From a virus, in IMG/VR virus record IMGVR_UViG_3300046006_004189, positions 1 to 43,449 of that record: a stretch of 43,449 nucleotides of DNA. The stretch is one strand, 5' to 3'. Numbering within the stretch: position 1 is the stretch's first letter; every line of letters starts with the position of its first letter. The translations under genes were made by a program, and so were the position numbers. Below, piece by piece: positions 1-41,883 of the stretch. The notes beneath the pieces are model-generated. The model worked only from the letters and a program-made list of their open reading frames with translations. It was not told the origin of the DNA and made no database searches.

Positions 1-410
1 TTGGGTTTAATCAAAGAACTAAATGGCACAAGCATAGTTTATTAGACCATTGTTTAGCTACTTATGAAGAAATAAAAAAAGGAACAACTAATAAACCTTT
101 ACTTGTGGCAGCAATAATACATGATTTTGGAAAATTATACACAGGAAAACAAAAAGAAGATGGTGACTATTGTTATTATTCACATGAGAATGTAGGAACA
201 TATCATTTATTACAGAATTTAGATTTATTTGGATTAAATAATGTTGATGATGTTTTAGAATGTTTGTTCTATGTTAACTACCACATGTTACCATTTTCTC
301 TTAATAATAATAAAACTCATCTAAAATACAAAACTTTATTTGGTGAAAAGTTATATGATAATTTAATATTTTTTAATGAGTGTGATAAAATAGCAAGTGG
401 CACTGAGTAG
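1..410 (+). CDS. HD-domain phosphohydrolase, C-terminal part (5' end outside window)
   Basis: The frame is open from the first bases, so the gene starts before the window. A GTG at 105 gives an apparent start, but the frame continues upstream with conserved HD-type residues (HSLLDH, then AAIIHDFGK, then SHENVGTYHLL). These fit the metal-binding His/Asp pattern of HD phosphohydrolases. The layout resembles the HD domain of CCA-adding enzymes, such as the one encoded at 9060-10430. The substrate cannot be told from this fragment; a nucleotide or RNA 2',3'-cyclic phosphate is possible. The stop codon overlaps a terminator hairpin at 409-437. Confidence 0.7.
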   Translation, partial: GFNQRTKWHKHSLLDHCLATYEEIKKGTTNKPLLVAAIIHDFGKLYTGKQKEDGDYCYYSHENVGTYHLLQNLDLFGLNNVDDVLECLFYVNYHMLPFSLNNNKTHLKYKTLFGEKLYDNLIFFNECDKIASGTE

Positions 411-437
411 ATAAAAAATATATTTTATCTTTTTTTA
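409..437 (+). terminator. Intrinsic terminator after the HD gene
   Basis: An 8-bp stem AGATAAAA (409-416) pairs with TTTTATCT (423-430), and seven T follow. It separates the leftmost gene from the promoter at 447. It is also the most terminator-like copy of a hairpin that recurs between genes across the window. Confidence 0.7.
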
Positions 438-446
438 ATAAAACTA

Positions 447-475
447 TTGACAAATTAACAGAAGTGTGTTATAAT
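447..475 (+). promoter_or_regulatory. Sigma-70-type promoter, extended -10
   Basis: TTGACA (447-452), 17-bp spacer, TATAAT (470-475) preceded by TGT. It lies just after a terminator and drives the genes from 506 onward. It is the first of ten near-identical promoters. Confidence 0.85.
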
Positions 476-505
476 GCACTTATTAAAAAGATTAGAGGAA
501 TAAAA

Positions 506-883
506 ATGAAAGAAGTAAAGAATTTCATATTAATGGAAGTAGCAATTACTCCTAATGGGGTTGAAATAACAAGTAAGATGATAGAAAATTCATTATCTAC
601 ATTTGCTAATAAACCTATTGTTTATAATAAACAAGAAAAATTAAAAGACTATAGAGATGATGAAATTGTTAAAAGTTTTAATGAAGAATTTTGTATTGGT
701 TATATACAAGATGATGTTGTATTTGAAAATAATATAGTAACTGCAACTGTATTCTTTTTGGATGATTTGTTTGAAAATATAATTGATAGTTCTGTTTTTG
801 AAAAAAATGGAAAAGACAATTGGCAAATCATAGTAAATGAGAATGGAAAAGGTTTTGTATATGCAGCTTGTGAGTTATTTTAA
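506..883 (+). CDS. Hypothetical phage protein
   Basis: 125 aa from ATG 506, preceded by AGAGGA. An upstream in-frame GTG at 464 is rejected because it lies inside the promoter (-10 at 470-475). The middle reads like the start of phage prohead-protease or DUF2213-type proteins (ITPNGVEIT, then NKPIVYNK, then GYIQDDV), but it is too short for a protease and I see no catalytic motif. Function unknown; the resemblance is weak. First gene of its unit. Confidence 0.75.
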   Translation: MKEVKNFILMEVAITPNGVEITSKMIENSLSTFANKPIVYNKQEKLKDYRDDEIVKSFNEEFCIGYIQDDVVFENNIVTATVFFLDDLFENIIDSSVFEKNGKDNWQIIVNENGKGFVYAACELF

Positions 884-926
884 AAAGCAGAAAACATTGT
901 TTTTATAATATAAGGAGAGATATTAA

Positions 927-1193
927 ATGAATAAAAGAAATTTTGAAGAAAATGAAATGGTTAAAGAAATCACTGGTGCTGAATTTAGAGATAGTGGAGC
1001 ATTATGGTTTGTAAATTCTATCTTACACTTATTTGGGATGGCTATAACTTGGAATCCAGATACTGATGAATTAAAAGCATCAATAGTTAAATTTAGAGGA
1101 TTTGATGAAAAAACTACAACTAATGGTTATTTAAAATTATCTAAATATTTAAAAGAAAATGCAGATAGTCTAATTAAAGATTGTGATGAATAA
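927..1193 (+). CDS. Hypothetical protein
   Basis: 88 aa, ATG preceded by AAGGAGAGA at good spacing. Contains a hydrophobic stretch near residues 24-40 (GALWFVNSILHLFGMAITW) flanked by charged segments. It is more likely a buried amphipathic core than a membrane span, because charged residues occur on both sides without a signal pattern. No family recognised. Confidence 0.75.
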   Translation: MNKRNFEENEMVKEITGAEFRDSGALWFVNSILHLFGMAITWNPDTDELKASIVKFRGFDEKTTTNGYLKLSKYLKENADSLIKDCDE

Positions 1194-1201
1194 AAAAAAG
1201 G

Positions 1202-1219
1202 ATAGAACCATTGTTTTAT
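1202..1219 (+). promoter_or_regulatory. Intercistronic hairpin
   Basis: ATAGAAC (1202-1208) pairs with GTTTTAT (1213-1219) through one G-T pair, with a 4-nt loop. It lies between a stop codon and the next Shine-Dalgarno site, like other hairpins in the window, and no T-run follows. Confidence 0.4.
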
Positions 1220-1238
1220 AGTGTGAGAGGAAATTTGA

Positions 1239-1487
1239 ATGAAAACATTTGAACAAAAAATTAAAGAAGAAATTAAGTCAACTCAAAAACTACTTAAAAT
1301 AGATAAATACAATTCTTGTTTAAAACATTGTCCTTTTTGTAATGGAAAAGTAAGTTTATATGCGTCTTGGAATGAAGAAGAGTGGGCAGTTTATTGTGAA
1401 AAATGCAATACTACAAGTCCTAAATATAAAAAAACAATAGAAAATGCAGCTGAATATTGGAATACTAGATATAAGGGAAAGGAATAA
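1239..1487 (+). CDS. Lar-like restriction alleviation / zinc-ribbon protein
   Basis: 82 aa. CPFCNGK and YCEKCNT supply two CxxC knuckles (about residues 31-34 and 56-59), and the C-terminus ends with ENAAEYWNTRY. This matches the Lar-type zinc ribbon, whose hallmark is the final A..WN.R motif. In lambdoid phages Lar/Ral modulates type I restriction-modification. Here that role is only inferred from the fold, since many phage members of this family are untested. RBS GAGAGGA precedes the ATG. Confidence 0.7.
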   Translation: MKTFEQKIKEEIKSTQKLLKIDKYNSCLKHCPFCNGKVSLYASWNEEEWAVYCEKCNTTSPKYKKTIENAAEYWNTRYKGKE

Positions 1488-1490
1488 ATT

Positions 1491-1838
1491 ATGAAAAAAA
1501 AGTATAATGTAATAACACTATGTGGTAGCACTAAATTTAAAGATGAATATATTAAAGCACAACAAGATTTAACATTACAAGGAAATATAGTAATCTCAGT
1601 TGGATTATTTGGACATACTGATATGCCTGAAATTATGGATACAGAAACAAAAGAAATGCTTGATGATTTACATAAAGCTAAAATAGATATGGCTGATGAG
1701 ATATTTGTTATTAATGTTGGTGGCTACATAGGTAGTAGTACAAAATCAGAAATAGAGTATGCGCATTTAATTGGAAAGAAAGTATCTTATTTATATAAGG
1801 AGAATAATAATGAAAATGAAAACAATTATAACAAATGA
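1491..1838 (+). CDS. Nucleoside 2-deoxyribosyltransferase-like (DUF4406-type) protein
   Basis: 115 aa. LCGSTKF near the N-terminus, then LHKAKIDMADEIFVIN and GGYIGSSTKSEIEYA, form the Rossmann-like nucleoside deoxyribosyltransferase/SLOG pattern. The family cleaves or senses nucleotides, and phage copies are mostly uncharacterised. In this NAD- and nucleotide-rich window, a role in nucleotide salvage or ligand sensing is plausible. It starts 3 nt after the upstream gene. Its last codons overlap the next gene's start (1810), suggesting translational coupling. Confidence 0.75.
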   Translation: MKKKYNVITLCGSTKFKDEYIKAQQDLTLQGNIVISVGLFGHTDMPEIMDTETKEMLDDLHKAKIDMADEIFVINVGGYIGSSTKSEIEYAHLIGKKVSYLYKENNNENENNYNK

Positions 1839-2187
1839 TATAAAAGATTTATATTATTATATTGCACTAGATTTTGATGGCACTTTAGTTGAACACTGTT
1901 TCCCTGAGATAGGATTTATAAGACTAGATACAATAGAAAAGTTAAAAAAAAGAATAGAATATATAAAATCAAAAGGACTTATTGTTATACTATTATTATG
2001 GACTTGTAGAGTAAACTTACCAGGTAGAAATTATTTAGATGAAGCTGTTGAATGGTGTAAAGAAAATGGTATTGAAATAGAAGAAAATGGGATTAATAAT
2101 AATCCTTATGTTAATTTTGGCCATCCAGAATTGGTTAAAAAAATATATGCAGATGAATATTGGGATGATAAAGCAGTAGGGTGTTAA
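1810..2187 (+). CDS. HAD-superfamily hydrolase-like phage protein
   Basis: 125 aa from ATG 1810 with RBS AAGGAG; a longer reading from TTG 1771 is not supported by an RBS. ALDFDGTLVEH is HAD motif I, WTCR is motif II, and the C-terminal ADEYWDDKAVG supplies the acidic motif IV. It fits the short phage HAD phosphatases. The phosphorylated substrate is unknown. It overlaps the previous gene by 29 nt. Confidence 0.8.
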   Translation: MKMKTIITNDIKDLYYYIALDFDGTLVEHCFPEIGFIRLDTIEKLKKRIEYIKSKGLIVILLLWTCRVNLPGRNYLDEAVEWCKENGIEIEENGINNNPYVNFGHPELVKKIYADEYWDDKAVGC

Positions 2188-2197
2188 GGAGAAAAAT

Positions 2198-2464
2198 ATG
2201 AGTAAAGCAGTATTAGTTCAAGCAGATGATTGGGAAGGATTATTTATTGATGGAAAACTTGTTAGAGAGGGGCATACCTTAAATCAAGGATCTAGTCGAA
2301 TTAAATATTTTATTAAATTGGCAGAAAAATATGATTTTGATATTAAAGAATTAGAAGAGGGATATGTGACCGAAGATTTTGATGAGAATTATTTAGAGGA
2401 ATGTGGTCATTTCCCAAAATCATTATCAGAAGTTGAATATGAAGTTGAAGAAGATGAAAATTAG
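2198..2464 (+). CDS. Hypothetical acidic protein
   Basis: 88 aa with a strongly acidic C-terminus (EVEYEVEEDEN). RBS AAGGAG sits 6 nt before the ATG. Contains ADDWEGLFIDGKLVREGH, a pattern I have seen in small phage orphans, but I cannot name a family. An intercistronic hairpin follows. Confidence 0.75.
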   Translation: MSKAVLVQADDWEGLFIDGKLVREGHTLNQGSSRIKYFIKLAEKYDFDIKELEEGYVTEDFDENYLEECGHFPKSLSEVEYEVEEDEN

Positions 2465-2467
2465 ATA

Positions 2468-2494
2468 AGATAAAATATTTATTTTATCTGTTTT
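2468..2494 (+). terminator. Intercistronic hairpin with short U-tract
   Basis: AGATAAAAT (2468-2476) pairs with ATTTTATCT (2481-2489), then G and four T. It could be a weak terminator or an RNA-stability element. It is a close match to the hairpins at 409 and 11266. Confidence 0.5.
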
Positions 2495-2508
2495 AAAAGG
2501 AGTAAATT

Positions 2509-2736
2509 ATGAAAGAAACTGAAATAAATAATATAGTTAGAGTTATTGTTAATACAGCATGTTTTTTTGAATCAAAAAGATGTGTAGAAGAAAATTCTAC
2601 AAATTTATTTAAAAAAATATCTCATAAATATGGAACATCAATTTGGCAAGCTCTTCTTTTCCCTAAAAAATACACTAAGGCATTTAAAGAATATTATCAA
2701 TTAGCATTAATGTTGCATAATAAACATAACATATAA
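2509..2736 (+). CDS. Hypothetical protein
   Basis: 75 aa, RBS AAGGAG 7 nt before the ATG. Basic protein with a predicted helical C-terminus (FKEYYQLALMLHNKHN). No recognisable motif or membrane segment. Only gene context supports it. Confidence 0.7.
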   Translation: MKETEINNIVRVIVNTACFFESKRCVEENSTNLFKKISHKYGTSIWQALLFPKKYTKAFKEYYQLALMLHNKHNI

Positions 2737-2753
2737 GGAAGGGACAGTGAGTT

Positions 2754-3035
2754 ATGAAAGAATATTTTAGTCATTTATTGGCTAATTGGAAAGTTGCACT
2801 ACATAGTCTAAATGATTTTGCTGAACATTTTATTCATGGGTTGTTTCCTTTTATAAGTTGGAAACATTATGAGAGAAATTCTGGAAAATATTATGATTAT
2901 AGAACTGTAACAGGTAAAGCTGCTAAAGATTTATGGAAAAAAGTTCATAAAATTCCATCTCCTGAAAGACAAGCACAAATTGATGCAGGGTATGAAATAT
3001 TAAAAAAACAATTTGAGGGTAAAATAAAATATTAA
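2754..3035 (+). CDS. Hypothetical phage protein
   Basis: 93 aa. Aromatic- and His-rich N-terminal half (SHLLANWKVALHSLNDFAEH, then GLFPFISWKHYE) followed by a basic half. The pattern resembles a widespread small phage protein of unknown function, possibly membrane-associated. RBS GGAAGGGA lies rather far (about 10 nt) from the ATG. The structured RNA at 3037-3342 starts 1 nt after its stop codon. Confidence 0.7.
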   Translation: MKEYFSHLLANWKVALHSLNDFAEHFIHGLFPFISWKHYERNSGKYYDYRTVTGKAAKDLWKKVHKIPSPERQAQIDAGYEILKKQFEGKIKY

Positions 3036-3036
3036 A

Positions 3037-3342
3037 TAATTAAAATATTAGTAGACAAAGATAAAGTCAGAGCAAGAAAATACTCTACTCTCGTGAATTT
3101 GTAGAAGCAATGTAAGACCTGTGGGCTTACTGTTTGATAGAACGGAAAACTATCCTATATTGTTAGTGATGCACTAAATAGTCGGCTACAAGACAATAAA
3201 CATAATTTGATGGGTAATTGCTCATTATGAATACCGTTGGGAGGCAAGATTTAAGCCTGTTTCAAATATCCCAAATGGGTAGTGAGTTAAACCATGCAAG
3301 AGTGCTACAGTAGGTGAAAAGCCTTGTCTAATATTTTAATTA
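3037..3342 (+). ncRNA. Large structured RNA element (~300 nt), unrecognised
   Basis: No ORF, and visibly richer in G+C than its surroundings. The ends are complementary: 3037-3050 pairs perfectly over 14 bp with 3329-3342, and GACAA (3054-3058) pairs with TTGTC (3324-3328) after a 3-nt bulge. Inside are further hairpins: GTAAG/CTTAC near 3113-3131, GATAG/CTATC near 3136-3154, TTAGTG/CACTAA around an ATG loop near 3161-3175, and AGGC/GCCT near 3242-3258 enclosed by TTGGGA/TCCCAA. I find no RNase P, tmRNA, T-box, cobalamin-riboswitch or group I core signature. It lies just upstream of a vWA gene. Confidence 0.65.
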
Positions 3343-3375
3343 AAAATAATTAATAAAATAAAAAGGAGAAAGAAA

Positions 3376-3993
3376 ATGAAAGAAAACTTAACAGAAATAG
3401 TATTTATACTTGATCGAAGTGGCTCAATGTCTGGATTAGTAAATGATACAATTGGCGGGTTTAACTCATTAATTGAAAGTCAAAAAAAAGAAGATGGTGA
3501 TGCTTTTGTCACAACTGTTCTTTTTGATCATATGTATGAAATATTACATAATGGTGTAGATTTAAAAGAAATACAACCTCTTACTAATAAAGAATATTTC
3601 CCTAGAGGTATGACAGCATTATTAGATGCAATTGGAAAAACAATTAATACTGTTGGTGAAAGATTAAATAATACTGAAGAATCAGAAAAACCATCTAAAG
3701 TTATATTTGTGATTTCTACAGATGGACAGGAAAACTCAAGTAAAGAATTCAATCAAAAGCAAATTAAAGAAATGATTGAAAAACAGACTAATGTATACAA
3801 TTGGAAATTCTTATTCTTAGGTGCAAATATTGATGCAATTGCAACTGCAAGTAATTATGGTATAACATATGCTTCAAACTATACAGCCAGTGCACAAGGT
3901 GTTGCATCACATTATGAGGGAGTTTCTAAAGCAGTTTCTAGTGTTAGAGGTGGAGATGGTATTCAAGTAAATTGGAATAGTGAAATTGTTTAA
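3376..3993 (+). CDS. von Willebrand factor A (vWA) domain protein
   Basis: 205 aa, essentially a single vWA domain. MIDAS motif DRSGSMSG (D13, S15, S17), the conserved Thr region PRGMTALLDAIG, and STDGQENS as the second metal-binding Asp loop. Close in layout to YegL/TerY-type cytoplasmic vWA proteins, which act as metal-dependent protein-binding modules. No signal peptide. RBS AAAGGAGAAAG. Directly downstream of the structured RNA, so it could be regulated by it or work with it; that is inference. Confidence 0.85.
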   Translation: MKENLTEIVFILDRSGSMSGLVNDTIGGFNSLIESQKKEDGDAFVTTVLFDHMYEILHNGVDLKEIQPLTNKEYFPRGMTALLDAIGKTINTVGERLNNTEESEKPSKVIFVISTDGQENSSKEFNQKQIKEMIEKQTNVYNWKFLFLGANIDAIATASNYGITYASNYTASAQGVASHYEGVSKAVSSVRGGDGIQVNWNSEIV

Positions 3994-4024
3994 AAAAATA
4001 ATTTGAAAATATTTCATAAAACAC

Positions 4025-4053
4025 TTGACAAATAATTAAAAGTATGCTATAAT
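4025..4053 (+). promoter_or_regulatory. Sigma-70-type promoter, extended -10
   Basis: TTGACA (4025-4030), 17 bp, TATAAT (4048-4053) in the context AAAAGTATGCTATAAT. Drives the unit that runs from 4139 to about 10430. The leader is about 80 nt. Confidence 0.88.
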
Positions 4054-4138
4054 AGAATAAATCAGAAAGATAGGGAAATTGAGTTTTTGATTTCCATATA
4101 ATTATAATAAAAAGGAAATAAAAGGAGAATTTTATCTT

Positions 4139-4456
4139 ATGAAAAAATTTAAATGCACAGTAACAAAAAATTATGATTATGAAATTGAAATTGATGAGAA
4201 TGTTTGGACAGATGAAAATATAAAAAGATGGGCAAGTGTTTTTGAAGAAGCTGAAACTTTAGAAGATTTAGTAGCAATAATAGCAGAAAGAAAAACCAAA
4301 TATAATACAGGAGAATTTATTGAGGGATTTGGTTTTGTAAAGATAAATGGTAAAAATCCTTTTGCAATAGAACCAAATGCAATATGTGAACATATTAATA
4401 TTAATTTAGAAGATGAATATTGTGATGTAGAAGTTGAAGAAATTGAGGGAGAATAA
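4139..4456 (+). CDS. Hypothetical protein
   Basis: 105 aa, RBS AAAGGAG about 11 nt upstream of the ATG. Acidic C-terminus; alternating charged and aromatic residues at the N-terminus (FKCTVTKNYDYEIEID) suggest a small beta-rich fold. First gene of its promoter unit, two bases before the exonuclease gene. Family not recognised. Confidence 0.75.
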   Translation: MKKFKCTVTKNYDYEIEIDENVWTDENIKRWASVFEEAETLEDLVAIIAERKTKYNTGEFIEGFGFVKINGKNPFAIEPNAICEHININLEDEYCDVEVEEIEGE

Positions 4457-4458
4457 AA

Positions 4459-5004
4459 ATGAAAATATATTTTGATTGTGAGTTTACAGGGTTAGATAAA
4501 AATGCTGAATTAATCAGCATAGGAATGGTTGCTGAAAATGGCAAACAAATTTATGTAGAGTTTGATGATATTAGTTTATCTGATCTAGACCCTTGGATTT
4601 GGGATAATGTTATTTCTAATTTGATTTGGTTTAAAAGTGGAAGTGAGTTTGTAGAAAATTATTGTTACACTTCTAAAACTTCTGCATGTATAACTATTAT
4701 AACCTGGTTAAAACAATTTGATACTGTTGAATGGGTCTCTGATGTATGCCATTATGATTTTGTACTATTGATTGATTTGTTATATGGAAATGCATTAGCT
4801 ATTCCAGACAATCATTCTAGGGTGTGTTATGATATTAATAATGATATAGCTTTTTCTAAACATATTACTTCAGATAAAGCATTTGATTTATCTAGAGAAG
4901 ATTTAGTAGAAGAGTTGGATATGGTTATTACTGGAGAAAAACATAATGCTCTTTATGAGGCTAAAGTTATAAAAGCAATATATGATGGAATAGATATATT
5001 ATGA
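4459..5004 (+). CDS. DEDDh-type 3'-5' exonuclease (Rv2179c-like exoribonuclease fold)
   Basis: 181 aa. Exo I motif YFDCEFTG (D6, E8), Exo II Asp in CHYDFVLL (D100), Exo III KHNALYEA (H162). Family members usually carry Asp five residues after this His; here it is E167, a conservative change that may alter metal binding. Closest by pattern to the phage and actinobacterial 3'-5' exoribonuclease family. Likely a role in RNA or oligonucleotide turnover. Its stop codon overlaps the start of the homing-endonuclease gene. Confidence 0.75.
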   Translation: MKIYFDCEFTGLDKNAELISIGMVAENGKQIYVEFDDISLSDLDPWIWDNVISNLIWFKSGSEFVENYCYTSKTSACITIITWLKQFDTVEWVSDVCHYDFVLLIDLLYGNALAIPDNHSRVCYDINNDIAFSKHITSDKAFDLSREDLVEELDMVITGEKHNALYEAKVIKAIYDGIDIL

Positions 5005-7095: not shown

Positions 7096-7629
7096 ATGGC
7101 TATAACAAAATTTAGAGATGTTTATGATTTCTTAAGTAGTTTTTATGTTTCAGATGTTCTGTATGATGGAATTTTATATAGAAGTTCAGAATCAGCTTAT
7201 CAAGCTCAAAAGACATTGGATATAGAAGAAAGAAAGTTTTTTGCAAATAGAAGTGCTGATGCATCTAAATTTGAGGGAAGACAGTTGGATATTAGAGAGG
7301 ATTGGGAAGATGTTAAGCTGAAATATATGTATGAAATTGTAAAAGCTAAATTTACTCAAAATGAAAGTTTAAAAAGAATGTTATTAAATACTAAATATGA
7401 AACTTTAATTGAGATTAATTGGTGGCATGATAATTTTTACGGAAACTGTAACTGTATTAAATGTCAAAATGAATTTGGACATAATCACTTGGGTGAAATA
7501 TTAATGAAAGTAAGATCTGAAATAAGAAAATCAGAAAAAGATAAACCTCGTATTTTAGGAATAGATTTAGCATCAGATCAATGGGGTAGAGGTTTATATC
7601 AATGTACATCAATAAAAAAGGAGAAATAA
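7096..7629 (+). CDS. NADAR (YbiA-like) family protein
   Basis: 177 aa. FRDVYDFLSSFYVSDVLYDG, SSESAYQAQKT, RSADASKFEGR, DWEDVKLKYMYEIVKAKF, and WWHDNFYGNC with NHLGEILMKVR are the ordered motifs of the NADAR/YbiA fold. Family members hydrolyse N-glycosidic bonds, including ADP-ribose removal from guanine in DarT-type systems. A C-terminal tail from about residue 147 (PRILGIDLASDQWG) lies beyond the usual domain. RBS AAAAGGAGAAG. Near a second NADAR-like gene (8593) and the CCA enzyme. Confidence 0.88.
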   Translation: MAITKFRDVYDFLSSFYVSDVLYDGILYRSSESAYQAQKTLDIEERKFFANRSADASKFEGRQLDIREDWEDVKLKYMYEIVKAKFTQNESLKRMLLNTKYETLIEINWWHDNFYGNCNCIKCQNEFGHNHLGEILMKVRSEIRKSEKDKPRILGIDLASDQWGRGLYQCTSIKKEK

Positions 7630-9059: not shown

Positions 9060-10430
9060 ATGATAGATAATATACAACTTAATATACCTTCAGATGTTTC
9101 CTTTATTTTGGATTTATTAAATTCATCAAGATATAAATCTTACATTGTTGGAGGCTGTGTTCGTGACATATTACTAGATAAAGAACCAAAAGATTGGGAT
9201 ATAACTACTGATGCAACTCCAACTCAAGTAATAGAAGTTTTTAATAATTTTAGAGTTATTGAAACAGGAATCCAGCATGGAACAGTTTCAGTTTTAATTA
9301 ATGATGTAATTTATGAAGTTACAAGCTTTAGAATTGATGGTGAATATACTGATAATAGAAGACCAAATTCTGTAGAATTTACAAGCAATTTAGAGGATGA
9401 TTTAAAGAGACGTGACTTTACTATTAATGCAATGGCATATAACCCAACTGAGGGTTTAATAGATTTATTTAATGGTCAAGAAGATTTAAATAATGAAATA
9501 ATTAGATGTGTAGGTATTCCAAATGAAAGATTTAATGAAGATGGTCTTAGAATTTTAAGAGCATTAAGATTTGCAAGTGTACTATGTTTTGAAATTGAAA
9601 AAGAAACAAGTATATCAGTTTTTTATAATAGAGATTTGTTAAGGAATATTTCTAAAGAAAGAATAGCTGTTGAGTTTAATAAAATACTTATGGCAGAAAA
9701 CTCTTATGATATATTAATGGAGTTTAAAGAAGTTTTTTCTGTTTTTATTTCTGAATTAATTCCAACATTTGACTTTAATCAAAACAACCCTTATCATACT
9801 TTAGATATTTATGAGCATATGTGTGTTAGCACTTATAATGTACAACAAGATTTAGTTTTAAAATTAACTATGTTTCTACATGATATTGGTAAGCCTTTAT
9901 GTTATACAGAAACTTTTAATGATGAGTTAAATAAAAACATAGGTCACTTTTATGGGCATGCTAAAATTAGTTCAGAAATAGTAGAAGTTATTTTAAGAAG
10001 ATTAAAATATGATAATGATACTATTAGAAATGTAGTACAATTAGTTTTTTATCATGATATTTTGTTTATAAACACTGAAACTTATATAAAAAAACTATTA
10101 AATAAAATATCAGAAAAAACTTTTAGACAATTAATTAAAGTTAGAATAGCTGATATAGAAGCTCAGAATCCTATATATTCAGATGAAAGAATTAATAAAG
10201 TTTTAGAAGTTGAAAAAACTTTAAATAAAGTTATTTCTGAGCAGCAATGTTTTTGTTTAAAAGAACTTACAATTAATGGTGATATATTAATTGAAATTGG
10301 ATTTAAAGGTGTTGAAATAGGTAATATTCTAAAAGATATTTTGGATAAAGTTATTAATGATGAATTAAATAATATAGAAGAAGATTTAATTTTATATGCA
10401 AAAAATATTTATTTTCAAAAAAAGTATTGA
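9060..10430 (+). CDS. cca: CCA tRNA nucleotidyltransferase (class II, with HD domain)
   Basis: 456 aa. IVGGCVRDILL (31-36 core), KDWDITT with catalytic DxD (D45, D47), HGTVSVLI, RRPNSVEF, and DLKRRDFTINAMAYNP give the complete class II CCA-adding head. The neck motif NERFNEDGLRILRALRFA selects the base. An HD domain follows (YHTLDIYEHM, then FLHDIGKP, then GHAKISSEIV). It adds or repairs 3'-CCA on tRNAs, useful for phage tRNAs or tRNA-like RNAs lacking encoded CCA (see 26101-26270). Its stop codon is part of the next promoter's -35. Confidence 0.93.
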   Translation: MIDNIQLNIPSDVSFILDLLNSSRYKSYIVGGCVRDILLDKEPKDWDITTDATPTQVIEVFNNFRVIETGIQHGTVSVLINDVIYEVTSFRIDGEYTDNRRPNSVEFTSNLEDDLKRRDFTINAMAYNPTEGLIDLFNGQEDLNNEIIRCVGIPNERFNEDGLRILRALRFASVLCFEIEKETSISVFYNRDLLRNISKERIAVEFNKILMAENSYDILMEFKEVFSVFISELIPTFDFNQNNPYHTLDIYEHMCVSTYNVQQDLVLKLTMFLHDIGKPLCYTETFNDELNKNIGHFYGHAKISSEIVEVILRRLKYDNDTIRNVVQLVFYHDILFINTETYIKKLLNKISEKTFRQLIKVRIADIEAQNPIYSDERINKVLEVEKTLNKVISEQQCFCLKELTINGDILIEIGFKGVEIGNILKDILDKVINDELNNIEEDLILYAKNIYFQKKY

Positions 10431-10455
10431 CAAAAATTCAAAAGTATGATATAAT
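10427..10455 (+). promoter_or_regulatory. Sigma-70-type promoter overlapping a stop codon
   Basis: TTGACA (10427-10432) includes the TGA stop of the CCA gene (10428-10430). 17 bp to TATAAT (10450-10455), preceded by GTATGA. Starts the unit from 10490 to 15945. Confidence 0.85.
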
Positions 10456-10489
10456 AGAGAAAAACAAAAAATGAGAGGAAATAAAAAAT

Positions 10490-18141: not shown

Positions 18142-20601
18142 ATGCAGTATATTTACAAGTTTTATAATAAAAATGATGAATGTTTGTATGTGGGTAAAAC
18201 AAACAGATTGTCAAGTAGATTTTCACAGCACAAAAGAGATAAGCTTTGGTTTAAAGAAATTGAATATATTATGACAGCACAATGCTTAAAAGAGTTTATG
18301 ATAGATATGTATGAGTTATATTATATCAATACTTTAAGTCCAAAACATAATAGGAAAGATATAAACATTAAACATGTAGACTTTTATCATGAAGAATTAA
18401 TATTTAAAAAATATAAAAATTTTAAGAAAGAGGACAATCAAATGAAAACAATTATTGGAAAGGCACAATTGCCATTTTCAGAAACACAAGCAAAGAATGT
18501 AACAATAGTAGAACTTAAAACAGAAGAAAAAATTAAAGATGGAGTTAGCCATCATATCCTATTAGCAGACTGTTCAGGAAGTATGAGCAGTAATCTTTCT
18601 AAATTAAAAACTCAAATTAAGAGTGTTATGGAAACTTTATTGCAAATTCCAAATTCTTATGTATCTGTTATCACATATTCAGGACATAAGGAAAGTAAAA
18701 GAATATTAAGTGCAATTAAATGTGATGATATGACTTATAAAATGAATGATGTATATTCTATTCTTGACAAAGAAATTTACATCAAAGGGGTTACAGTAAT
18801 GTCAGAACCATTAGAAATGTCAATTGATATTTGTAAATCATTAGTTGGAATATGTGATAAAAATCATATTGCTTTATTTACAGATGGATGCCTTGTCCCT
18901 TGGGATTGGTCTACTTCAGAAGAAGAAAAGAAATGTTTTGCTGTTGCTGAAATTTGCAAGAAAGAAAATATTTTCTTAAATGCAATTGGATTTGGTCAGT
19001 ATTATGATAGAAGATTCCTGACTAAATTAATTGAAGTAGCTGGGAATGGTGATGTATTGCATATTGATAATATTAATAGCTATTATGATGTTATTATAAA
19101 TACTATTAGAAAAATTGATGATATTGAATTAATTGCTACAAAAGTTGTTGTTTCTAGTATGTGTTTAGATTTGAAAACAGGTAATATAGGAACAGAATTA
19201 ACTTTATATGGTGTAGAAAATTTTATTGCAATTATAGACAATGGATCTAGTGAAGTTTATATTAATGATGAATTATTAGATTTACAAACTTCTAAAACAA
19301 TTCCACAAGATTATATTAATGATTATTATTATGCAATATCTAAATATCATTTATCAGAAGAGGATATTGATAGTTATGAATATATAATTAAAAATCTTGG
19401 AGATGTAAACTTATATAGTAAAACATCTAATTGTTATTCTTTTATTGAAAAAGGAAATGCTTTAAACTTAGTTAATTCAATGTTACAAGATAAGTCTTTA
19501 AGATTTGAAAAAGGGTATCAAGTATTTAAATTAGATGATATAAATGAACCTTTATGTGCATTAGAAATATTATCTAAGATTATATTAGATGAAAACAGTC
19601 AAATCTATTGGGACTTAAATACTCCTTATAATAGAATTACTCAAAAAACAAATACAGTTGAAGATAATATTGCTTTTAAAAGACAAGAGAGTGGATTAAT
19701 TCCAGTATATGATTTAAGTATTGGTAGTGAGAAACTTAATATTGGAATTAAGGTTGGAATTCCTGGTGTTGTTTCTGATTCTATTAGTAGACTATCAGCA
19801 GATGCTAAGATTTTTAGAGATTATAATGTAATTAATGGTGGTAATATAAATGTTCCTTATTTAAATGCAAAATTATCTCCTGCTTTAGTTCAAGAATTGT
19901 CTGAAATGGGCATAATTGAAAAGAATGTTCAATTTAGTTTTGTTGGTGGTATTGAAATTTACAAGATTAATTTAGTTGGTATAAAGTCAGCAAACAAAAG
20001 ATTGTTGAAATCAATGAAATTGTCTGAAATCAAAACCACATTAAAAAGAATTGCTGAATTAAAATGTGAACAATGGGCAGTTAATAAAAGAATCAAAGAA
20101 ATTGTTGGAGATAATGATAAACTTGATTTTGCAACAAATTTATCTTTTGAAGAAATTGAAATTAGAAAAGCATTAAGAATAGATGAAAAAGGTATATATC
20201 AACCATTAGCAGTTGAAAAAGATACTGAATCTAAATTTGATGTATATCCTGCAATTTTCTTAACTTGGGACATTAAGTATTCAGAGAAAAAAGGAAAAGA
20301 TGCTTGTTGGGCAATAGTTGAAACTGAAACTGATTTAATTGGTTTAAAATCAAGATTAGAAGCTGTTAGAAAAGAAAAGAGAGAACTTGATACAAAAGTA
20401 AATACTGTTAGAATAGCATCTGGTGTAATTAATAAATCTGCAATGTTATTTGATACAGAGTTAGAGAAAGAAAAAACTGTAACAGATAAAATTCTTGGAA
20501 TTAATACTGTTGTAAATGGTAGAATTAAAGAGTTTAAAAAGGTTGTAGATGAAGACATTATCACTCAACAAAAATGGTTACAGATGATAAAATGTAATTA
20601 A
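18142..20601 (+). CDS. GIY-YIG nuclease domain fused to a large vWA protein
   Basis: 819 aa. Residues 1-75: a GIY-YIG domain (YIYKF, ECLYVGKT, RLSSRFSQHKR, catalytic Glu in MYELYYIN, terminal SPKHN). From about residue 101: a vWA domain with MIDAS LADCSGSMSS (D143, S145, S147), GVTVMSEPLEMS, and FTDGCLVPWD, then about 480 residues of unrecognised sequence with a charged helical C-terminus. M101 (18442) has its own RBS (AGAAAGAGGA, 8 nt), so a separate 719-aa vWA protein may also be made. Likely a homing nuclease gene fused to a vWA gene. Cytoplasmic; partner unknown. Confidence 0.8.
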   Translation: MQYIYKFYNKNDECLYVGKTNRLSSRFSQHKRDKLWFKEIEYIMTAQCLKEFMIDMYELYYINTLSPKHNRKDINIKHVDFYHEELIFKKYKNFKKEDNQMKTIIGKAQLPFSETQAKNVTIVELKTEEKIKDGVSHHILLADCSGSMSSNLSKLKTQIKSVMETLLQIPNSYVSVITYSGHKESKRILSAIKCDDMTYKMNDVYSILDKEIYIKGVTVMSEPLEMSIDICKSLVGICDKNHIALFTDGCLVPWDWSTSEEEKKCFAVAEICKKENIFLNAIGFGQYYDRRFLTKLIEVAGNGDVLHIDNINSYYDVIINTIRKIDDIELIATKVVVSSMCLDLKTGNIGTELTLYGVENFIAIIDNGSSEVYINDELLDLQTSKTIPQDYINDYYYAISKYHLSEEDIDSYEYIIKNLGDVNLYSKTSNCYSFIEKGNALNLVNSMLQDKSLRFEKGYQVFKLDDINEPLCALEILSKIILDENSQIYWDLNTPYNRITQKTNTVEDNIAFKRQESGLIPVYDLSIGSEKLNIGIKVGIPGVVSDSISRLSADAKIFRDYNVINGGNINVPYLNAKLSPALVQELSEMGIIEKNVQFSFVGGIEIYKINLVGIKSANKRLLKSMKLSEIKTTLKRIAELKCEQWAVNKRIKEIVGDNDKLDFATNLSFEEIEIRKALRIDEKGIYQPLAVEKDTESKFDVYPAIFLTWDIKYSEKKGKDACWAIVETETDLIGLKSRLEAVRKEKRELDTKVNTVRIASGVINKSAMLFDTELEKEKTVTDKILGINTVVNGRIKEFKKVVDEDIITQQKWLQMIKCN

Positions 20602-26065: not shown

Positions 26066-26094
26066 TTGACAAAATAACAAAAGTATGCTATACT
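26066..26094 (+). promoter_or_regulatory. Sigma-70-type promoter placed at the 5' end of a structured RNA
   Basis: TTGACA (26066-26071), 17 bp, TATACT (26089-26094) in AAAAGTATGCTATACT. The predicted start (about 26101) is 3 nt before the tRNA-like acceptor strand. Confidence 0.88.
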
Positions 26095-26100
26095 ATGCTT

Positions 26101-26270
26101 ACAGCTTGAGATAACAATTAATTTTAGGTTGTGAGCATATTTTTTATTAAGGGAAGTAGTTATAAATTAAGCAGGAACTACACACTGTCTCATTTTGGGG
26201 TTAGGGGCAGACGAGTTAGATTAGGAAAATAACAGAGATGTTAAATTGGTTCAAGTCCAATTTCTAGCAT
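26101..26270 (+). ncRNA. tRNA-like RNA with a ~100-nt insertion at the anticodon arm
   Basis: No ORF. T-arm ATTGG-TTCAAGT-CCAAT (26245-26261) is canonical. The next seven bases TTCTAGC (26262-26268) pair with GCTTGAG (26104-26110) except for one T-T mismatch, with A as discriminator. A D-arm ACAA/TTGT (26114-26117 with 26129-26132) has an 11-nt loop. AGCAT (26134-26138) pairs with ATGTT (26238-26242) as an anticodon-position stem enclosing 99 nt. That insertion holds GTAGTT/AACTAC (26156-26161 with 26176-26181), TGTCT/AGACG (26186-26190 with 26209-26213) around a G-rich loop, and GTTA/TAAC. CCA is not encoded. The 2-nt variable region is too short for a normal tRNA. Confidence 0.6.
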
Positions 26271-26306
26271 ATTTAAAAGAAATTACTTAAAGGAGAAAAT
26301 AAAATT

Positions 26307-26531
26307 ATGTTATGTGTAAGATGTGGAGATTGCTGTATAAGATTTGAAATACCAGAATTAAATAAAAGAGCAGGAGTAAGATGTCAACATTTAACTGAAA
26401 ATAATTTATGCAAATTATGGGATAAACCTGAAAGACCAAAAGTTTGCAATAACCATGATTATCCTGCTAGTATATGCCCTATTGGAATTAATAAATTAAA
26501 GGAGTTTAAAAATGAAAGCTGTATTTTATAA
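26307..26531 (+). CDS. Short cysteine-cluster protein (YkgJ-like)
   Basis: 74 aa. VRCGDCCIRF (CxxCC), then RCQHLTENNLCKLWDKP, and VCNNH with ASICP: the order of Cys residues mirrors the YkgJ-type protein at 24447 in a compact form. Probable metal-binding protein. RBS AAAGGAG. It is the first gene after the tRNA-like RNA and overlaps the next gene by 20 nt. Confidence 0.75.
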   Translation: MLCVRCGDCCIRFEIPELNKRAGVRCQHLTENNLCKLWDKPERPKVCNNHDYPASICPIGINKLKEFKNESCIL

Positions 26532-27721: not shown

Positions 27722-28096
27722 ATGTTGTTAAAGAAATTTCCTATTACAGATAATGGGAAACAATATTTGGTTGAAATTTATACAAGTGAAACATATGCTG
27801 ACACTTGGTGTGTAAAAATAAATACAATTGTAGAAAAAAATATTGGTGTTTTAAAATATAAAGGGAAAAATGAGGAATGGAATGAAATTTTTAGTTTAAA
27901 AACTGAGCATTGTCTTATGAGAGATTTTTTCACAACTATTAAGAAAGTTGATTTTATTGAAATGGTTAAAACTTCATTTTATAATTATAATGAACATTTA
28001 AAAACAATAGAAGTAGAAAATTTAGAAAAAAAATTAAAAGAAATTATAATAAATGATTCTATGTTAGAACTTGAAAAATGGGATGGAAAAATTTAA
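27722..28096 (+). CDS. Hypothetical protein
   Basis: 124 aa, last gene before the promoter at 28119. The N-terminal half is beta-rich (KFPITDNGKQYLVEIYTSE) and the C-terminal third is a charged helix (EVENLEKKLKEIIIND). RBS AAAGGGA. Family unknown. Confidence 0.7.
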   Translation: MLLKKFPITDNGKQYLVEIYTSETYADTWCVKINTIVEKNIGVLKYKGKNEEWNEIFSLKTEHCLMRDFFTTIKKVDFIEMVKTSFYNYNEHLKTIEVENLEKKLKEIIINDSMLELEKWDGKI

Positions 28097-32397: not shown

Positions 32398-32949
32398 ATG
32401 AAAAAAAACAAGATACTTATTTGTATAGACTTACAAGAAGACTTTTTCACTGGAAGTCTTAAGAACCAAATGGCAATAGATATTATTCCCAATATAATTG
32501 ACAAAATCAAGGATGCAAAAGATAATAAACAAAGCATTATGTTTACACTAGATACTCATAGTGAGAATTATTTAAAAACTCAAGAGGGCAAGAATCTTCC
32601 AATTTCTCATTGTATAGAGGGAACACCTGGTCATCAAATTATTAGTCAAATTAGAAAAAGTGTTAGTCTTAGTGAAGATTGGTCATTTGAAAAAAATACT
32701 TTTGGAAGTTTAGATTTAGCTAATTATTTAACTGGAATTAATACTATTACACCTATTGATGAAATAGAACTTATAGGGGTAGTGTCTTCAATATGTGTTG
32801 TAAGTAATGCTTTGTTAATTAAAGCACATATGCCTGAAGTAAAAATAACAGTAGATGCAAGTTGTTGTGCAGGACTAAGTGAAGAGGATCAAAAAGCAGC
32901 AATGATTGTAATGAAAATGTGTCAAATAAATATTATAAATAATTATTAA
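32398..32949 (+). CDS. pncA: Nicotinamidase / isochorismatase-family hydrolase
   Basis: 183 aa. ICIDLQEDF (D11), WSFEKNTFGS (K99) and VVSSICVVSNA (C133) form the Asp-Lys-Cys catalytic triad. TLDTHSE with SHCIEG supplies metal ligands D52, H54 and H71, typical of nicotinamidases. It would hydrolyse nicotinamide to nicotinic acid, the entry step of the Preiss-Handler route, followed by the NAPRT at 34560. Pattern alone cannot exclude another amidase substrate, but the neighbours support this one. RBS AGAGGAG. Confidence 0.85.
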   Translation: MKKNKILICIDLQEDFFTGSLKNQMAIDIIPNIIDKIKDAKDNKQSIMFTLDTHSENYLKTQEGKNLPISHCIEGTPGHQIISQIRKSVSLSEDWSFEKNTFGSLDLANYLTGINTITPIDEIELIGVVSSICVVSNALLIKAHMPEVKITVDASCCAGLSEEDQKAAMIVMKMCQINIINNY

Positions 32950-33855: not shown

Positions 33856-33913
33856 AAAACACAACATATAGTAGTAGATCATAAATTAAAACACTATATG
33901 TTGTGTTTTGTAT
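33856..33913 (+). terminator. Strong intrinsic terminator
   Basis: A perfect 17-bp inverted repeat: 33856-33872 pairs with 33893-33909 around a 20-nt loop, and a T-rich tract follows. It closes the 28119 unit about 50 nt before the next promoter. Confidence 0.88.
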
Positions 33914-34559: not shown

Positions 34560-35975
34560 ATGAATTACAATCTTACAATGCTTACTGACCTTTACCAATT
34601 AACAATGGCCTATGGTTATTTTAAATCAAAAAAACAAAACAATCAAGCAGTATTTGATTTGTTTTATAGAAAGCATCCAGAAAGTCCTTTTGTTGTTGTT
34701 GCTGGAATAGAACAAGCAATCAAATATGTTGAAAGTTTAAAATTTACAACAGAAGATATAGAATATTTAAGAGGACAAAAATTATTTGATGAAGATTTTC
34801 TGAACTTTTTATTAACAATTAGGTTTAATGGAAAGATATATGCTATGGATGAGGGTACTATTGCATTTCCTCATGAACCTATCTTAAGAATAGAAGGAAA
34901 TTTAATAGAAGTTCAACTAATAGAAACAACTCTGTTAAATATAATTAATCATCAAACTTTAATTGCAACAAAAGCTAATAGAATAGTTAGAGCATCCTAC
35001 CCTAATCTTGTTATGGAATTTGGTTTGAGAAGAGCACAAGGTAATGATGCAGGTTTATTTGGTTCTAGAGCGTCTTATATAGGTGGATGTTCAAGTACAA
35101 GCAATGTATTAGCTGGAAAAGAATTTGGTATTCCAATTCAAGGAACACATGCTCATAGTTGGATTATGTCTTTTGAAACAGAATTAAAAGCATTTCAAGT
35201 TTATGCTCATAACTTCCCAAATAATTGTGTTTTACTAGTTGACACTTATGATGTTTTAAATAGTGGTATTCCTAATGCTATAAAAGTGTTTAATGAACTT
35301 AGGGTACAAGGATATAGACCAATAGGAATAAGATTAGATAGTGGAGATTTAGCTTATTTATCTAAGAAGGCAAGGATTATGTTAGATGAGGCTGGTTTCT
35401 CATATACTAAAATATTTGCAACAAATGATTTAGATGAATATACTATCCAAAATTTACAACAGCAAGGTGCTAAAATTGACGTTTATGGTGTAGGTACAAA
35501 ACTAATAACCAGTTATAATGTTCCAGCTTTAGGTGGGGTTTATAAGCTATCTGAACTAGATGGGACACCTAAGATGAAACTTTCTGAGAATATTGAAAAA
35601 ACTACAAATCCTTGTAAGAAAATGGTTTATAGATTGTTTGATAAGATAACTAAAAAAGCAGTTGCTGATTTAATTACATTAGATAATGAAGTAATTGATG
35701 AAAGTAAACCTTTAACAATTTATCATTCAATAGAAACTTACAAGAAATTAGTGCTTGAAAATATTTATGCAATACCTTTATTATCATTATATTATGATCA
35801 AGTTACTTGTAAAGAGTTCCCTAGTTTGATACAAATAAGAACTAATACTAAACAAAATTTAGATGCATTTTGGGAAGAATATTTAAGATTAAATAATCCT
35901 CAAGAATACAAGGTTGACATATCTGATAAACTTTATGATTTGAAGAAAGAACTTATTCATAAGTATAAGGGGTAA
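34560..35975 (+). CDS. pncB: Nicotinate phosphoribosyltransferase
   Basis: 471 aa, typical of the Gram-positive-type NAPRT. LTMLTDLYQLTMAYGY at the N-terminus, EFGLRRAQGNDAG (about 153-165), GTHAHSW (195-201, with the His that is phosphorylated in this family), VDTYDVLNSG, RLDSGDL (258-264) and YGVGTKLITS. It makes nicotinate mononucleotide from nicotinic acid and PRPP with ATP. Together with the nicotinamidase at 32398 and NadE at 40320 it gives the Preiss-Handler core. RBS TAGGAG. Confidence 0.93.
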   Translation: MNYNLTMLTDLYQLTMAYGYFKSKKQNNQAVFDLFYRKHPESPFVVVAGIEQAIKYVESLKFTTEDIEYLRGQKLFDEDFLNFLLTIRFNGKIYAMDEGTIAFPHEPILRIEGNLIEVQLIETTLLNIINHQTLIATKANRIVRASYPNLVMEFGLRRAQGNDAGLFGSRASYIGGCSSTSNVLAGKEFGIPIQGTHAHSWIMSFETELKAFQVYAHNFPNNCVLLVDTYDVLNSGIPNAIKVFNELRVQGYRPIGIRLDSGDLAYLSKKARIMLDEAGFSYTKIFATNDLDEYTIQNLQQQGAKIDVYGVGTKLITSYNVPALGGVYKLSELDGTPKMKLSENIEKTTNPCKKMVYRLFDKITKKAVADLITLDNEVIDESKPLTIYHSIETYKKLVLENIYAIPLLSLYYDQVTCKEFPSLIQIRTNTKQNLDAFWEEYLRLNNPQEYKVDISDKLYDLKKELIHKYKG

Positions 35976-37936: not shown

Positions 37937-37998
37937 CAGTAGGAGAAAATGATATATTTAATGAAACAATACAGAACAGAAACCCATATTATAAATAA
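37933..37998 (+). pseudogene. Possible remnant start of an interrupted gene (21 codons)
   Basis: ATG 37933, preceded by AAAGGGA, reads MTVGENDIFNETIQNRNP and stops at 37998 inside tnpB in another frame. The first residues resemble other short phage genes starting MTVG (for example 35981). It could be the 5' scrap of a gene cut by the tnpB element, or chance. Confidence 0.25.
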
Positions 37999-39187
37999 AA
38001 ATCATAACTTATATAGTTATTGTGATAATATGTGCTTTAAATCTAAAACCCTTTATAACTATACTAATTATATCATTAGACAAGAATTTATTAATAATAA
38101 GAAAATCATAAGTGCTGTGGATTTAAATAAATCATTAAAAACAGAAGAAGTTTTTCAACAATTCCCATCTAAAACTTCTCAATTGATAATTCTTCAATTA
38201 AGCAATAATTGGAAATCATTTTTCAAAAGTGTTAAAAGATGGAATACAAATAAAAATGGATATTGTGGAATGCCTAAACTACCTAAATATAAAGATAAAA
38301 ATGGAAGAAACATTGTTTTATTTGACTATATGCAAGGAAAATTTAAAGATAATAAATATTATTTTGCAAATAAGATTGTAGATGGAAAAGTTATTCATAT
38401 TGAATATATAGACACAAAAGTAAAAAAAGAAAATTTTGTAATATGTAGAATAGTTCCATATGGTTCTTGTTATAAAATAGAAATGGTATATAAAGTAGAA
38501 ATTGAAGATAAAACTAAATTTAATAATAATTATTTAGCAATTGATTTAGGAATAAATAATCTTGCTACATTAACTAATAACATAGGGTTACAACCTATTG
38601 TTGTAAATGGCAAAATATTAAAGTCAATAAATAATTATTATAATAAATTAATATCACAAGCAAGATCTTATGTTGGTAAAAAAACATCAAAAAGAATACA
38701 AAGAATAGGTCTTAAAAGAAATAATATTATAAATACCCATACACATAAAATAAGCAGATGGATTATTAATTATTGTTTAGAAAATAATATTGAAAACATA
38801 GTCATTGGAAGAAATAAAGATTGGCAGAGAAATAGTAATATAGGAAATAAAAACAATCAAAGTTTTACACAAATACCATTTGAAAGATTAATTGATAAAA
38901 TTAAATACAAAGGACTAGAAAATGGAATAAAAGTAGACATTATAGAAGAACAATACACAAGTAAATCAAGTTTTATAGATAATGATATTTTACCAACAAA
39001 ATTTGGAGATTATAAATTTAGTGGAAATAGGGTAAAAAGAGGATTATATAAATCTAAAGATGGAAAATTAATTAATGCAGATGTAAATGGAAGTTATAAT
39101 ATATTAAGAAAAGGTAATACTGAATTTAAGTATAATGACAGTATAAAGGGTATTTCATTGTACCCAATTAAGATAAATATATCTTAA
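37949..39187 (+). CDS. tnpB: TnpB (IS200/IS605 OrfB) RNA-guided nuclease-like protein, no zinc finger
   Basis: 412 aa. RuvC-I YLAIDLGINNLATL (D199), RuvC-II IIEEQYTSKSSFID (E334), RuvC-III NADVNGSYNILRK (D378) give an intact nuclease triad. The usual CxxC zinc knuckles between RuvC-II and -III are absent; KFGDYKFSGNRVKRGLYKS stands there instead, as in the known zinc-less OrfB branch. TnpB enzymes cut DNA guided by an RNA from the element's right end. No tnpA is nearby. Start uncertain: ATG 37949 or 37961. Confidence 0.88.
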   Translation: MIYLMKQYRTETHIINKNHNLYSYCDNMCFKSKTLYNYTNYIIRQEFINNKKIISAVDLNKSLKTEEVFQQFPSKTSQLIILQLSNNWKSFFKSVKRWNTNKNGYCGMPKLPKYKDKNGRNIVLFDYMQGKFKDNKYYFANKIVDGKVIHIEYIDTKVKKENFVICRIVPYGSCYKIEMVYKVEIEDKTKFNNNYLAIDLGINNLATLTNNIGLQPIVVNGKILKSINNYYNKLISQARSYVGKKTSKRIQRIGLKRNNIINTHTHKISRWIINYCLENNIENIVIGRNKDWQRNSNIGNKNNQSFTQIPFERLIDKIKYKGLENGIKVDIIEEQYTSKSSFIDNDILPTKFGDYKFSGNRVKRGLYKSKDGKLINADVNGSYNILRKGNTEFKYNDSIKGISLYPIKINIS

Positions 39188-40319: not shown

Positions 40320-41087
40320 ATGAGTTTTTTATTGGATAGCTTTGATGCTAAAAAAGTTAAAAATAAAATGGTTGAATGGATTAGAAATTGGTTTGATAAA
40401 AATGGAAAAGATGCTAAAGCTATTATTGGAATTTCAGGTGGAAAAGATTCAAGTGTTGTGGCTGCACTTTGTGTTGAGGCTCTTGGAGTAGATAGAGTAT
40501 ATGGTGTTTTAATGCCACAGGGACAACAATCTGATATAGATTATAGTTATGATTTATGCAGATATTTAGATATTAATTTTTCTAAAATAAACATTGGTTT
40601 TGTAGTTGATGAGTTATTACAAACCATATCATCTGACTTATGTCCAGTATTTAGAAAAGATTTAAGTTCTCAAACAAAAATTAACACTCCTGCAAGAATT
40701 AGAATGACAACTTTATATGCAATTGCAGGTACTTTGAATGGAAGAGTAGCAAACACCTGTAACCTAAGCGAGGATTTTGTTGGATTTGCAACCAAATATG
40801 GTGATGGGGCTGGCGATTTCAGTCCATTATCAGAATTAACTGTAAGTGAAGTTAAAGCAATTGGTAGAGAATTAGGATTACCATCTAAATTTGTAGATAA
40901 AACTCCAATTGATGGATTGTGCGGATCAACAGATGAAGAAGCTTTAGGATTTACTTATGATGTATTAGATAAATATATTAGGACAGGTGTTTGTGATAAT
41001 TTAGAAACTATGTCAAAAATTGATATAATGTATATAAAAAATAGACATAAATTAGAAACAATACCTGCTTACAAACTAGGGAAGTAA
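40320..41087 (+). CDS. nadE: NH3-dependent NAD+ synthetase
   Basis: 255 aa, full length for the ammonia-dependent form. GISGGKDSSVVAAL (ATP PP-loop, residues 39-45), GVLMPQGQQSD, NTPARIRMTTLYAIA, NTCNLSEDFVGFATKYGDGAGDFSP and LPSKFVDKTPIDGL in canonical order. It amidates nicotinate adenine dinucleotide to NAD+ using ATP and NH3, with no glutaminase domain. It completes the Preiss-Handler route from the phage NAPRT. RBS AAGAGGG. Followed by pnuC and nadR. Confidence 0.95.
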   Translation: MSFLLDSFDAKKVKNKMVEWIRNWFDKNGKDAKAIIGISGGKDSSVVAALCVEALGVDRVYGVLMPQGQQSDIDYSYDLCRYLDINFSKINIGFVVDELLQTISSDLCPVFRKDLSSQTKINTPARIRMTTLYAIAGTLNGRVANTCNLSEDFVGFATKYGDGAGDFSPLSELTVSEVKAIGRELGLPSKFVDKTPIDGLCGSTDEEALGFTYDVLDKYIRTGVCDNLETMSKIDIMYIKNRHKLETIPAYKLGK

Positions 41088-41129
41088 ATAATATTTTAAT
41101 ATAAAAGAAAGATTAAGAGGAAAATAATT

Positions 41130-41882
41130 ATGTCAAATTTATCAAGTGCAAGAAAAAATTGTGCAGTTTATGATGAGGCTGGTAAGATACCAAAAAAATC
41201 AAAGTTTACACTATTTGAAACAATTCTTATAGTATTAAATATACTTATTGGATTAGGTTTCTTAGTAATGGGTAAAGATTACTCATTAATGCCACTATTA
41301 GGATTTACTGCAAGTGTTAGTAATACACTATGTGTTATACTTGTTGCAAAAAGACAAATTAGTAATTATTGGTGGGGTATTTTAGGCACACTTACTTATG
41401 GTATTGTTGCTTTTAATGCAGCTAATACAGGAGAATGGACTTTAAACTTTCTATATTATTTGCCTATGAATTTTATAGGTTGGTATATGTGGAATAAAAA
41501 TTCAGAAGACAAAAAAGAAGTTAAAAGTAAAAGCTTAAGTTTAAAACAATCTGTTTTAATATTTAGTTTAACTGCTGTTTTAGTTTTTGCATTTGCTTAT
41601 TTAATGGCATTACCACAAGTTCAAATGTTTTTATATGGTGAAGTTTCTACTTTAGGTTTTATAAAATATTTAACAGATAGTCTTTCTACAGTATTATCAA
41701 TTGTTGCTATGATTTTAATGGTTAAATGTTATAGAGAACAATGGATTTTATGGATTGTAGTAAATATTGCAAGTATCATTCTTTGGTGTTTTACTTTTGA
41801 TTTAATGATGATATTACTATGGTCAACACTATTAGTTAATTCAGTTTATGGTTATATTAAGTGGAAAACAGAGGAAGTTTAG
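41130..41882 (+). CDS. pnuC: PnuC-family nicotinamide riboside transporter
   Basis: 250 aa with about seven hydrophobic spans (about 29-48, 52-74, 80-97, 105-121, 141-162, 185-200, 204-240). YWWGILGTLTYGIVAF and NFIGWYMW (WxxW motif, W118 and W121) are PnuC hallmarks. It would import nicotinamide riboside through the host membrane for phosphorylation by the NadR kinase encoded next, which traps it inside the cell. RBS AGAGGA. It ends 1 nt before the nadR start. Confidence 0.92.
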   Translation: MSNLSSARKNCAVYDEAGKIPKKSKFTLFETILIVLNILIGLGFLVMGKDYSLMPLLGFTASVSNTLCVILVAKRQISNYWWGILGTLTYGIVAFNAANTGEWTLNFLYYLPMNFIGWYMWNKNSEDKKEVKSKSLSLKQSVLIFSLTAVLVFAFAYLMALPQVQMFLYGEVSTLGFIKYLTDSLSTVLSIVAMILMVKCYREQWILWIVVNIASIILWCFTFDLMMILLWSTLLVNSVYGYIKWKTEEV

Positions 41883-41883
41883 T

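Follow-up and report, generated by a model that had tools for sequence, protein, structure and literature searches.

A GC-rich non-coding element closed by an end-to-end stem in a phage operon, a candidate structured RNA

What is the 306-nt non-coding block that lies between a small gene and a vWA-like gene at 3037-3342 in this AT-rich virus? We analysed the block in its setting in the whole 43.4-kb record (hereafter, the window; G+C 0.254). The reading that we tentatively favour, judging from the sequence, is that the element is a structured non-coding RNA module embedded in a phage operon, whose end stem would form its boundary and possibly an RNase III site. The element is an orphan of interest rather than a demonstrated new RNA class. 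The features of the region are listed in Table 1.

Table 1 Features of the element and its surroundings (positions in the window; z scores relative to dinucleotide shuffles).
Feature	Position	Strand	Details
Operon promoter upstream of the element	447-475	+	Consensus sigma-70 type
Upstream gene, 93 aa, no family	2754-3035	+	Stop codon ends 1 nt before the element
Closing stem, 5' arm, 14 bp	3037-3050	+	Pairs with 3329-3342; pair probability 0.85
Inner 5-bp stem, 5' arm, after a 3-nt TAG bulge	3054-3058	+	Pairs with 3324-3328; pair probability 0.61
GC-rich non-coding interior	3059-3323	+	Several predicted hairpins, no ORF
Small hairpin UUAGUG/CACUAA	3163-3177	+	Pair probability 0.58
Long irregular 3' hairpin domain, 104 nt	3201-3304	+	z -2.12 for 3200-3304
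Core helix of the 3' domain	3220-3228 with 3279-3287	+	Pair probability 0.99
Hairpin AGGU-GAAAA-GCCU adjoining the closing stem	3312-3324	+	Pair probability 0.82
3' arms of the 5-bp and 14-bp stems	3324-3342	+	
Downstream gene, 205 aa, vWA-like	3376-3993	+	phrog_7371; weak TerF-like vWA; start 33 nt after the element end
Consensus promoter of the next operon, directly past the vWA gene	4025-4053	+	

Setting, closing stem and composition of the element

The predicted genes used here are all on the + strand, on which ten perfect TTGACA-N16-18-TATA(A/C)T promoters were found in the window (0.2 expected). These ten near-identical extended -10 promoters, at sites from 447 to 43427, delimit the phage operons, and many of them have AAAGTATG ahead of the -10 box. 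The element would be read within an operon transcript, after the 93-aa gene and ahead of the vWA gene, since promoters stand at 447 and 4025 and the intervening genes run in the same direction. The 900 nt ahead of the element are free of near-consensus promoters (at least 10 of 12), and no terminator-like site with a U-tract was detected on the + strand of 1-5000. This also places the element within the operon, so that a discrete RNA could arise only by cutting of the operon transcript. A promoter-driven sRNA was rejected because no near-consensus promoter lies just upstream. One 10-of-12 promoter-like site falls inside the element (3134-3161), and such sites were no commoner in this region than in shuffles (39 found, 37 expected).

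The two ends of the element pair over 14 and 5 bp (19 bp in total), and the outer run becomes 15 bp with the adjoining G-C pair. The outer arm is AT-only, and the 3-nt bulge between the two stems is a repeated TAG. A perfect 15-bp arm pair at least 190 nt apart, scored as the perfect run only with the bulge left out of the count, occurred in 0 of 2000 dinucleotide shuffles of the spacer, in which the longest was 13 bp. Across the whole window there are 19 perfect arm pairs of at least 12 bp within 600 nt, and just one of them, a local hairpin at 33856, is longer than that of the element. The closing stem is beyond chance.

The base composition is also unusual. The interior has a G+C of 0.374 versus 0.254 for the window, a value reached by 0.02% of 270-nt windows. 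The spacer that bears the element (340 nt) is the longest of 52 promoterless spacers, the next having 158 nt. Among the 26 spacers of at least 30 nt it is the second-longest and the GC-richest (0.321; the other 25 have a mean of 0.200 and a maximum of 0.294). Subtracting the 306-nt element gives 34 nt, a spacer length usual in this genome. The longest stop-free frame that touches the element without running into the vWA gene encodes 40 aa. Eight stop-free frames from the element had no Pfam match, and the PHROG search of its stop-free frames returned a single chance-level match (E 0.18). With no ORF and these search results, a coding remnant was rejected. The preliminary description had given the block these same coordinates and the 14-bp plus 5-bp end-to-end stem, and had called it free of ORFs and unusual in composition, all of which our analysis bears out.

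Predicted fold and comparison with known RNA classes

Fold stability was expressed as z scores relative to dinucleotide shuffles. The whole element scored -2.2 on the + strand and -3.5 on the - strand, mostly due to the end stem, and 10 of 141 windows of 306 nt also reached -2.2 or lower. Its absolute fold energy is lower than that of all but one of the 141 windows, because of its base composition. For the interior, the z score was -0.40 on the + strand (63 of 200 shuffles as good) and -1.09 on the - strand (28 of 200). The five or more hairpins proposed for the interior are present in the MFE structure, but on the + strand the interior is no stabler than its shuffles.

The part of the predicted fold that appears best supported is the 3' domain (3200-3304), with a z score of -2.12 on the + strand (3 of 200 shuffles as good) versus -0.28 on the - strand; this domain was chosen after the fact, and 20 of 289 windows of 105 nt reach the same score. 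For the 5' domain (3097-3198) it is the - strand that gives the relatively better fold (z -1.71 versus -0.57 on the + strand). Judged by fold energy, the element may or may not be a structured RNA.

The covariance models of Rfam 15, whose families include GOLLD, ROOL, OLE, HEARO, group I/II introns, RNase P, tmRNA and riboswitches, gave no match at the gathering threshold. Nothing was found in the element at E<=5 when the whole window was searched, nor at E<=10 in 2950-3450, group I/II introns and HEARO included, in line with the earlier statement that no known class matches. A group I intron and HEARO were rejected on this basis. A tRNA or tmRNA was likewise rejected, since ARAGORN found neither in the 43-kb window. 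The single weak match elsewhere in the window, to RT-9 (27735-27829, E 1.8), is below gathering, lies in the predicted ORF 27722-28096 and was taken as chance.

Resemblances to several known systems are nevertheless instructive. The msr-msd RNA of retrons is closed by an a1/a2 stem between its ends and has a long hairpin towards its 3' end, and the element is alike in both respects. A retron was rejected because the neighbours are the 93-aa protein of no family and the vWA protein, with no reverse transcriptase. Like HEARO (the IscB omega-RNA, RF02033), which has ~200-300 nt and occurs in phage contigs, including one related by its vWA gene, the element is of about this size and phage-borne; unlike HEARO it has no Rfam match, and neither neighbour gene is HNH or IscB. 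With ROOL and GOLLD it shares being non-coding and phage-borne, with no known function and with an elaborate predicted fold. According to PMC12286853, many GOLLD RNAs exceed 800 nt, the ROOL structure numbering extends beyond 460 nt, and both are often near tRNA islands, with structures supported by covariance. The element differs in having ~300 nt, no tRNA in the window, no Rfam match and no homologue. GOLLD and ROOL belong to the few large phage RNAs to which no role has yet been assigned.

Searches for homologues

We searched for the element by sequence in phages, plasmids and bacterial genomes. Blastn (words of 11) gave three chance matches in phages (29-41 nt, E 1-5) and none in plasmids. 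Four scans of viral_contigs for exact element patterns returned 5, at least 120, 61 and 39 stretches. The 225 listed stretches were aligned by score to the element and all were judged chance, the alignments of the best 7 of the 225 being inspected by eye. The best alignment among the matches listed falls within an ORF of a contig with 53% GC and was rejected as chance. An element 20-mer had no occurrence in genome_contigs, and 16 loci that share the phage-promoter pattern had no shared proteins and no match to the element.

The neighbourhood was followed through related loci. The element was absent from the 450 nt upstream of the vWA gene in all 11 vWA relatives and from the rest of their records, in which 3 of the 11 had chance matches of 14-20 nt. 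Among 10 records related by ribonucleotide reductase, 5 had short matches (16-33 nt, E 0.01-0.4), none of which extended, and the upstream 93-aa gene as a query retrieved no relative. None of the stem-closed or GC-rich spacers examined in the relatives' records resembles the element; the identifiable ones were HEARO, tRNAs and a skipping-rope RNA. The HEARO RNA (107.8 bits) is at 2751-2959 of the vWA-related phage contig L054, which also has a long non-coding, intron-like stretch at 18898-19280 with a very weak group I match (11.3 bits, below gathering). The skipping-rope RNA (57.1 bits) fills part of a long non-coding gap at 10327-10467 on the - strand of L041, another related record.

No near relative of the phage was found in the collections searched, from which records very close to the window may be missing, and nine records that share the vWA or reductase gene hold just 2-5 of the 51 window ORFs of at least 90 aa. 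The only bacterial genome match of the reductase was one uncultured Clostridia MAG (52-56% identity). This single match guided the choice of bacterial genomes, which was therefore a guess, and the blank result of the searches as a whole is weak evidence of absence. Of 391 genomes in the class of the MAG, 6 had matches at E<=0.01, all of which were 20-40 nt chance matches once realigned, and the 398 genomes of its phylum had none at E<=1e-4. A single-sequence covariance model of 3197-3327 recovered itself alone in 1.0 Mb from a subset of the loci (57 sources) and nothing in 99 genomes at E<=0.1. A covariance model from one sequence is weak, and these blanks do not prove absence.

Structured RNA, mobile DNA, cis element or debris

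Several observations speak for a structured RNA: a stem beyond chance, a GC-rich interior, a long spacer, no coding potential, and an ordinary 34-nt spacer once the 306 nt are removed. The low energy of the 3' domain is confined to the + strand, as should be the case if it is the transcribed strand that counts. In PMC6429828 structured RNAs were sought by picking out long GC-rich spacers of AT-rich genomes, and the present element, non-coding, GC-rich and closed by a stem in a tightly spaced genome of 25% GC, fits this criterion. Of the spacers selected there, ~20% were strong structured-RNA candidates, ~40% known genes and about a quarter not classifiable. Like the orphans of that screen, the element occupies a long GC-rich spacer of a compact AT-rich genome and has no homologue in the searches; it differs in residing in a phage rather than a bacterial genome and in its clear end-to-end stem. 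Against a structured RNA stand the lack of any homologue in the searches, hence of covariation, and an interior that on the + strand folds no better than shuffles; the better scores of the 5' domain and of the full element on the - strand also fail to favour a + strand RNA.

The same features can be read differently. With known families and coding sequence excluded as far as tested, we place a structured RNA ahead of mobile DNA, a cis-acting element and debris, in that order. The preliminary description had not considered mobile DNA. A MITE-like non-autonomous element strikes us as rather unlikely; in this reading the 19-bp ends would be terminal inverted repeats, the transposase would be supplied elsewhere, and a 34-nt spacer of ordinary length would have taken up foreign, more GC-rich DNA as the interior. 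Such elements are short with inverted ends and foreign composition, as is this block of ~306 bp, which none of the 11 vWA relatives has ahead of that gene and whose interior fold potential is not beyond shuffles and is similar or better on the - strand. However, it is a single copy in a 43-kb record that may be a fragment, no second copy appeared in the collections searched, and the target duplication is unconvincing, being just AAA in an A-rich flank or TA within the palindrome. The sole transposase among the scanned proteins is a TnpB-like protein of IS605 type (37949-39187), whose elements are not known to have terminal inverted repeats. In PMC6429828, most of the remaining Thermovirga lienii motifs with homologues were classed as mobile or repeat candidates, a precedent for the mobile reading.

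That the structure acts only in cis, controlling the decay or relative expression of the upstream and vWA messages with no separate RNA function, we regard as unlikely. Its position exactly between two cistrons inside a promoter-delimited operon would suit this role. On the other hand, the ribosome-binding site of the vWA gene stays unpaired when 3037-3375 is folded, for which reason simple translational masking was rejected, the + strand of 1-5000 has no U-tract terminator, the element was not found at this place in the 11 vWA relatives, and the stem alone would presumably serve, the 265-nt GC-rich interior exceeding the need. Debris appears more improbable still: a decayed gene, intron or coding remnant from a GC-richer source, whose AT-rich flanks happened to yield the AT-only stem. 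The AT-only outer arm within AT-rich DNA and the shuffle-like stability of the interior are as this would predict, and about a quarter of the spacers selected in PMC6429828 likewise escaped classification. Yet no shuffle reached the closing stem, the stem and the GC-rich interior have the same boundaries, the stop-free frames had no Pfam match and a chance-level PHROG match at best, and no Rfam intron matched at E<=10.

If the element is a structured RNA, its place inside the operon would make nuclease excision at the end stem the natural route, and release from the operon transcript is plausible. The end-to-end stem may fold co-transcriptionally and isolate the module from the flanking messages, serving as a substrate of host RNase III or protecting the 3' end of the upstream message. 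An RNA of roughly 265-300 nt would be released via the stem, and its interior, with several hairpins and the 104-nt 3' domain, might act in trans, for instance on a phage or host protein or RNA to which it binds. The fuller proposal, a new class of end-closed, ~300-nt phage RNA that is cut from the operon message and works as a trans scaffold or decoy in infection, we consider doubtful. A compact operon-embedded RNA with a built-in excision stem, if true, would be a simpler system to test, and the present value of the element is as a single sequence with which to query larger metagenome sets.

Other features of the window were recorded. In an 819-aa protein (18142-20601), an N-terminal GIY-YIG nuclease domain precedes a vWA-like domain. 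A NAD+ salvage set (32398-32949, 34560-35975, 40320-42918 and 7096-7629) comprises an isochorismatase-like protein, nicotinamide phosphoribosyltransferase, NAD synthase, a PnuC-like transporter and NMN adenylyltransferase, plus a NADAR protein. A leader of ~210 nt separates the consensus promoter at 26066-26094 from the gene at 26307, and the region 26066-26306 had no Rfam or ARAGORN match. The leader has a 19-bp hairpin with a T-run behind it close to the start and a T-arm-like stem-loop close to the end, and the start sequence could pair alternatively with the 3' side of the hairpin or with the leader end, which makes this leader a candidate attenuator or second RNA.
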